Source: Limisphaerales bacterium (lineage in GTDB: Bacteria > Verrucomicrobiota > Verrucomicrobiia > Limisphaerales > UBA1100). From it: a DNA stretch of 64,000 nucleotides. Below are positions 1,139 through 1,606 of the stretch, piece after piece. Position 1 is the stretch's first letter. Each line of letters opens with the position of its first letter. The notes under the pieces are model-generated. The model did no database searches. It was not told where the DNA came from and worked only from the letters and a program-made list of their open reading frames with translations. The stretch spans positions 20,177-84,176 of the forward strand of contig JACNJL010000022.1 in assembly GCA_014382585.1 (NCBI GenBank). Direction: 5' to 3'. A program made the translations under genes and the position numbers.

Positions 1139-1221
1139 CATTTTCTCTGACAAAGCCATTAGGCAACCTCTATTTCGTTTTGTTAACAACTGGTGAATAG
1201 CCGGTGCACACGAAAGAATAA

Positions 1222-1606
1222 CTCCGGCTTGGACGCCGGCGTTTCTGTGATAAATTTTTCTGCGTTGAGCGGATCTTCGGAGACGCTCGGTCGGTCAGCC
1301 GATCGCGGGAGCGGGATTCTTCGGAATCACCTCTGAAGGAAACGGCTTTGGGAGCGATCCCGGAGAGCAGTCCTTAAGAGGTCTGTTAAAGGCAGTTCCC
1401 ACCCAGGCCGGTCGCCCTTCGGGGTGGCAGGTTGGCCTGTCTCCTTCGGGATGGCAGGCTGGGGGTCGGATTTGGCTGTTACTCTGAAAAGAGTAATTGC
1501 CCTGCCAAGGGCAACGACCTCGAGAGAACTCCCGCAAGGGAGCCCCCTTGAAAAGGATTGGTAACCGCCCGCGGCGAACTTCGGTTTACTGCGGGCGGTT
1601 TTTTTT
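1222..1606 (+). ncRNA. Candidate structured non-coding RNA: chain of stable hairpins ending in a terminator
   Basis: This stretch has no convincing protein frame but many perfect or near-perfect stems. Stems with the paired arms I can see: 1224-1239 (5 bp); 1267-1288 (GAGCG/CGCTC around a UUCG loop with flanking GA steps); 1288-1305 (7 bp, loop TCAG); 1315-1328 (5 bp, loop TTCG); 1413-1426 (CGCCC/GGGTG, loop TTCG); 1435-1459 (about 10 bp with a bulge, loop TTCG); 1479-1496 (7 bp, loop GAAA); 1497-1514 (7 bp, loop GCCA); 1529-1542 (CTCCC/GGGAG, loop GCAA); and the terminator at 1563-1606. UUCG and GNRA loops are typical of folded RNAs. It does not show tmRNA, RNase P, SRP or 6S signatures that I recognise. 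The 5' end is a guess; it may start anywhere between the upstream gene and about 1260. Confidence 0.5.
1563..1606 (+). terminator. Strong Rho-independent terminator
   Basis: A 10-bp stem of AACCGCCCGC (1563-1572) with GCGGGCGGTT (1591-1600), containing an inner short stem capped by TTCG (1580-1583), is followed by an uninterrupted T run to 1606. It lies more than 420 bp beyond the stop of the LRR lipoprotein gene, which suggests that it ends a separate transcript. Confidence 0.85.

Follow-up and report, generated by a model that had tools for sequence, protein, structure and literature searches.

The RsmX, RsmY and RsmZ RNAs, like CsrB and CsrC, are sets of paralogous, independently transcribed, hairpin-rich RNAs that share a conserved upstream element, end in intrinsic terminators and sequester CsrA by means of GGA-bearing hairpin loops. 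The Qrr sRNAs of Vibrio are likewise specified by multicopy genes with a conserved activated promoter; they are ∼100 nt long, sigma-54 driven and Hfq-dependent. 6S RNA (RF00013), which binds RNA polymerase, is a stable structured ncRNA. To our knowledge, few regulatory RNAs have been described from Verrucomicrobiota.

The locus analysed here occupies positions 1181–1606 of a 64 000-nt stretch of a Limisphaerales genome (the window). Comparison with its relatives indicates an upstream block followed, at a fixed distance, by a structured RNA and an intrinsic terminator. As in the Rsm and Csr sets, there are several paralogous hairpin-rich RNAs, their independent transcription being predicted, with a common conserved upstream element and intrinsic terminators, in a host that encodes CsrA. 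Unlike those sets, these RNAs bear UUCG rather than GGA loops, are not enriched in GGA, and have a strongly conserved 3′ core that is predicted to form a pseudoknot. With the Qrr sRNAs they share multiple gene copies and a conserved promoter, here inferred to be activated; in contrast, no match to Hfq (PF17209) was obtained in this 95% complete genome. Like 6S RNA, the product would be a stable structured ncRNA, but it gave no match to the 6S model, and another locus of the genome, at C41, is itself a 6S candidate (43.1 bits, E = 3.2e-7, slightly below the 46.4-bit gathering score). In its proposed way of working, the RNA resembles other paralogous sRNA sets, and it belongs to none of those tested.

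Extent of the predicted hairpin-chain RNA

An earlier note had described positions 1222–1606 as a ten-stem hairpin chain, a possible undescribed structured RNA rather than random GC-rich DNA. The chain of stems is present, including both right arms of the form GG-x-TGGCAGG; the five UUCG caps correspond to five CUUCGG loops, against 0.3 expected in dinucleotide shuffles, the two GNRA loops are GCAA (1534–1537) and GAAA (1486–1489), and the strong terminator is the stem plus T-run that closes the chain. The folding energy was –199.5 kcal/mol, compared with –161.6 ± 6.4 kcal/mol for dinucleotide shuffles (z = –6.0). The region was also rightly said to hold no credible protein, the sole ORFs over it being unsupported antisense or terminator-spanning frames. 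The reverse strand folds well too; the plus strand was chosen because of the T-run and the promoter-like block. Of the interval's two ends, the right one, at the terminator, was retained, while the left one was moved: its first 40 bp (1222–1263) were assigned to the promoter, and the RNA start was placed near 1264, where the promoter block and the first of the hairpins that are conserved would put it. The number of stems, given as ten, needs adjusting as well. The 5-bp stem at 1224–1239 falls within the predicted promoter and has not been retained by the homologues. The resulting features are given in Table 1.

Table 1. Features of the locus, in window coordinates (promoter, pairings and RNA boundaries are predicted)
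Feature	Position	Strand	Details
Conserved upstream DNA element	1181..1222	+	tgttaacaac tggtgaatag ccggtgcaca cgaaagaata ac
Predicted promoter	1229..1256	+	–35-like TTGGAC 1229–1234, 16 bp spacer, extended –10 TGATAAATT
Extended –10 of predicted promoter	TG 1248–1249, TAAATT 1251–1256	+	From conservation
Predicted ncRNA gene	1264..1606	+	∼340 nt (paralogues 230–280 nt); from homology and structure
Hairpin H1	1267..1288	+	GAGCG/CGCTC, inner UC-UUCG-GA; two-sided changes at 3/7 pairs
Hairpin H2	1289..1304	+	GGTCGG-TCAG-CCGATC; alternatively 5′ strand of long-range helix
Length-variable arm of UUCG hairpins	1305..1463	+	CUUCGG enriched
Closing strands	1464..1519	+	GGTCG 1464–1468 ... CGACC 1515–1519
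Hairpin PA	1498..1513	+	TGCCC-TGCCAA-GGGCA; two-sided changes at 5/6 pairs; loop 1503–1508 is the predicted pseudoknot strand
Helix PB	1520..1551	+	TCGAG/CTTGA around GNRA hairpin CTCCC-GCAA-GGGAG (1529–1542)
Linker	1551..1563	+	AAAAGGATTGGTA; TTGGTA 1558–1563 pairs with PA loop
Intrinsic terminator	1563..1606	+	AACCGCCC...GGGCGGTT + T-run; stem 99% paired

It is very probable that the chain of hairpins is a genuine gene for a non-coding RNA, and that it represents a genuine new family of structured ncRNA genes is close to certain: homologues exist, base pairs covary, and Rfam holds no match. In the search with the Rfam 15 covariance models, no score reached its gathering threshold, the best matches (11–19 bits, with E up to 10 allowed) being chance matches far below the gathering scores; the paralogous and class B loci (see below) gave no match to a known family either. 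RNase P is encoded elsewhere in the same genome. In the open-licence full-text literature, no paper describing a similar RNA was found. In the DNA around the gene, a poly-G run (1–55) is in frame with an LRR-like ORF, the frame of which is shifted by a perfect 22-bp tandem duplication (285–328), the ORF ending at 351; short tandem repeats (TTTTGTGCAAATCA; 1603–1645) directly follow the terminator.

Copies, relatives and genomic context

A DNA search detected two close paralogues elsewhere in the genome, one at C15 and one at C64. They match the window sequence over ∼100 bases at its beginning and ∼110 at its end, but not in between. A divergent copy, termed class B, is present at C60, and the genome has at least four copies of the family. 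Among 40 relatives, 12 gave DNA matches, all belonging to the same taxonomic family; R1, a covariance model built on the 3′ domain, matched 15 of 20 genomes of that family, counting a weak class B copy in G010, and three or more genera possess the RNA. When 146 genomes sampled from the order and 388 from the phylum were searched, R1 matched no genome of any other family, under stricter filters that may miss weak matches. Class B, which has a CACCC loop, was found via weak matches together with the upstream motif, and its model (R2) also recovers class A members, the window RNA at E = 1.9e-5. The class B copy lies downstream of a gene that by inspection specifies a short Sel1/TPR-like repeat protein.

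Several candidates were set aside. By inspection, the R1 match at G005 C13 is a terminator belonging to what is probably the gene for ribosomal protein L9; order-level matches of the class B model (E = 0.002–0.009) were taken as probable terminator matches, and sequence-pattern matches in Bacteroidota and Alphaproteobacteria as chance. A pattern match in a viral contig was also ascribed to chance, the rest of the element being missing. An Akkermansiaceae UBA7890 contig (L045, 1–200), from a MAG placed in a different family, has no part of the RNA except its final ∼75 nt with the terminator; it may be a misbinned contig or a fragment.

G000 and G004 are collinear over the window locus, of which G002 and G001 also have the RNA and the flank downstream of it; G000, G004, G005 and G001 have the C15 locus in common. 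Loci are thus syntenic between species, yet the immediate neighbours of the different copies differ, which argues against both a cis-acting leader and mobility. There are few copies, each of full length, and they occupy loci that are conserved from species to species, so the scattered palindromic repeat family that the earlier note had named as a refutation is ruled out. Signs of gene conversion among copies were also seen: the G005 C10 and C5 paralogues show 98% identity within one genome and the G000 C15 copy is 93% identical to that of G005 C10, while the surrounding locus in G005 C9 shows ∼82%. Copies of one genome can be more alike than copies that occupy one locus in different genomes, which points to gene conversion and to functions that would be interchangeable. 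At the start of G000 C15 (L006, 1–45), a tmRNA gene truncated by the end of the contig is represented by its 3′ part (22.1 bits); next come a tRNA gene and, after it, the copy of the hairpin-chain RNA.

Covariation and alternative folds

The comparison points to an RNA composed of two 5′ hairpins, an expandable UUCG arm and a conserved 3′ core, the latter comprising a hairpin apparently pseudoknotted with the linker and a GNRA hairpin. Two-sided pair changes exceeded those in shuffles throughout: in MAFFT-only alignments they amounted to 21 cells against 7.5 for the 3′ core (A2) and to 8 cells against 2.7 for the 5′ hairpins (A4), and in 24 model-aligned sequences (A6), an alignment that was fitted to the model and so leans toward it, they were seen at 19 of 30 pairs and in 62 cells, whereas shuffles gave 16.9 cells and slid controls no more than 16; these counts come from related sequences and are not independent events. 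Helix PB and its GNRA hairpin changed at 4/5 and 3/4 pairs, respectively, in the model-fitted alignment, and the terminator stem shows a double change at one pair. In H2, a double change from A-U to G-C distinguishes GGUCAG/CUGACC from GGUCGG/CCGAUC members. The arm aligns poorly among paralogues, its number of hairpins varying. The closing strands read GGUCG/CGACC in the window class and GGUCA/UGACC elsewhere, and here enclose GGCTG plus a class-specific hairpin, TTACTCT-GAAA-AGAGTAA (1479–1496).

The PA loop UACCAA is complementary to the linker sequence UUGGUA, with 96.9% of cells paired, and in two separate members (G000C64 and G009C4) ACCA/UGGU is replaced by GCCA/UGGC; a loop–linker pseudoknot is supported by these comparisons. 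RNAalifold prefers an alternative pairing, ACC(24–26)/GGU(71–73). The pseudoknot was nevertheless favoured because the loop reads GCC where the linker reads GGC, ACC remaining unchanged.

The GGUCRG, CYGACC, GGUYRG and YGACC strands can pair locally in 97.9% of cells and over long range in 94.4%. The predicted free energies of the two folds differ by –4.4 to +6.4 kcal/mol (0.6 in the window). These mutually exclusive GGUCRG/CYGACC pairings may let the RNA switch conformation, a possibility to be read in the light of few independent changes. The more ambitious picture, of a lineage-restricted pseudoknotted RNA with two mutually exclusive folds of about equal stability, serving as a core multicopy regulator in this uncultured family and without known bacterial counterpart, is rather doubtful.

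Upstream element and possible roles

In a gapless alignment at the inferred RNA start, which included both classes as well as the genus most distant from the others, identity across 20 members was 0.39–0.54 between –81 and –46 and at background (0.26) upstream of –90; some 80 bp of DNA are conserved, and the spacing of the block to the start is nearly fixed. In the window, the block begins near 1181. Half-sites resembling TGTGAATAACC are found in it, together with a –35 that is weak and a –10 of the extended type. The family form of the element, TGTGAATAACCxGTGAAxA...AATAATAACT, has half-sites ∼11 bp apart and is probably an activator-binding site. TGnTAnnnT is retained in most members, class B included; a simple sigma-70 consensus scan of the promoter region gave no match. 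The promoter assigned from these comparisons would be sigma-70-type and activator-dependent, and would provide the RNA with transcription of its own. With up to three mismatches allowed, the genome has 31 sites for TGTGAATAACCNGTGAA but 7 for its reversed control, and some of the 31 are upstream of protein genes. A TGTGAATAACCTGTGAA-like motif precedes several genes (G000 C60:1821, C36:142564, C55:15388, C64:29084 and others), and these sites may mark a regulon; one of the downstream genes resembles, by eye, a ribosome hibernation factor, and the half-sites resemble DnaA boxes (TGTGGATAA).

The reading that fits best, and which is held with somewhat better than even confidence as a whole, is that the locus is one of several belonging to an undescribed, family-specific multicopy ncRNA gene, independently transcribed and acting in trans. 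An RNA sequestering CsrA, in the manner of CsrB or RsmX/Y/Z, would suit a genome with a CsrA gene (80.5 bits, cut-off 27) and would account for a linker GGA that is invariant in 24/24 class A RNAs (as ANGGA in 23); the paralogous copies and common upstream element also recall RsmX/Y/Z. However, such a sponge is unlikely because GGA is not enriched: GGA and ANGGA counts equal the shuffled level, with many GGA inside stems, repeated GGA hairpin loops are absent, the loops being mostly UUCG, and half of the class B members lack the conserved site. From the two nearly iso-energetic folds and the terminal terminator, it might be suspected that the RNA is a leader acting in cis on the gene downstream, be it an attenuator or a riboswitch equipped with a terminator. 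This is quite improbable: the next gene in the window starts ∼185 bp beyond the terminator, the terminator stem lies outside both folds, and the copies do not share neighbours.

Size, stability and the long irregular helix of the closed fold would fit an RNA that binds polymerase as 6S RNA does, or some other housekeeping RNA of which this is a divergent copy. Set against this are the lack of an Rfam match, the separate 6S candidate, RNase P and tmRNA 3′ end in the genome, and the presence of four divergent copies, which is atypical for such RNAs; the chances of this explanation are very small. Smaller still are those of an origin in a mobile or selfish element, of which the RNA would be a structured segment. 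Multiple copies with conserved ends and a variable middle, and several assemblies that break inside the RNA, would agree with it, but the loci are fixed and syntenic across species, phage and plasmid searches gave no match, and the sole viral-contig match is that already attributed to chance.

If the preferred reading of an independently transcribed, trans-acting RNA is correct, a stable RNA would act as a post-transcriptional regulator, much as other paralogous sRNA sets with a shared promoter signal do (RsmX/Y/Z, Qrr); the case for a trans-acting regulator is about evenly balanced. The likeliest contact surface would be the purine strand AAAAGGA of the linker, predicted to be mostly unpaired between helix PB and the pseudoknot. 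The partner of this strand would be a GGA-binding protein or else a stretch of mRNA or rRNA that is rich in pyrimidines. This assignment is tentative. AAAAGGATTGG is invariant in a 16-sequence alignment; class B lacks the AAAAGGAUUGG linker and an evident pseudoknot partner, so the proposed surface is not universal in the family. The UUCG arm would probably be a protective scaffold.

The hairpin-chain RNA is probably a new lineage-specific RNA with a predicted regulatory role, of a family that, in the sequences searched, appears in one bacterial family only and matches no known RNA family. A strongly covarying multicopy RNA family that is kept in three or more genera and seems to do without Hfq would offer a defined point of entry into RNA regulation among uncultured marine bacteria; with the covariance models, existing metatranscriptomes can be checked directly, and the upstream motif common to RNA copies and protein genes points to a possible regulon.
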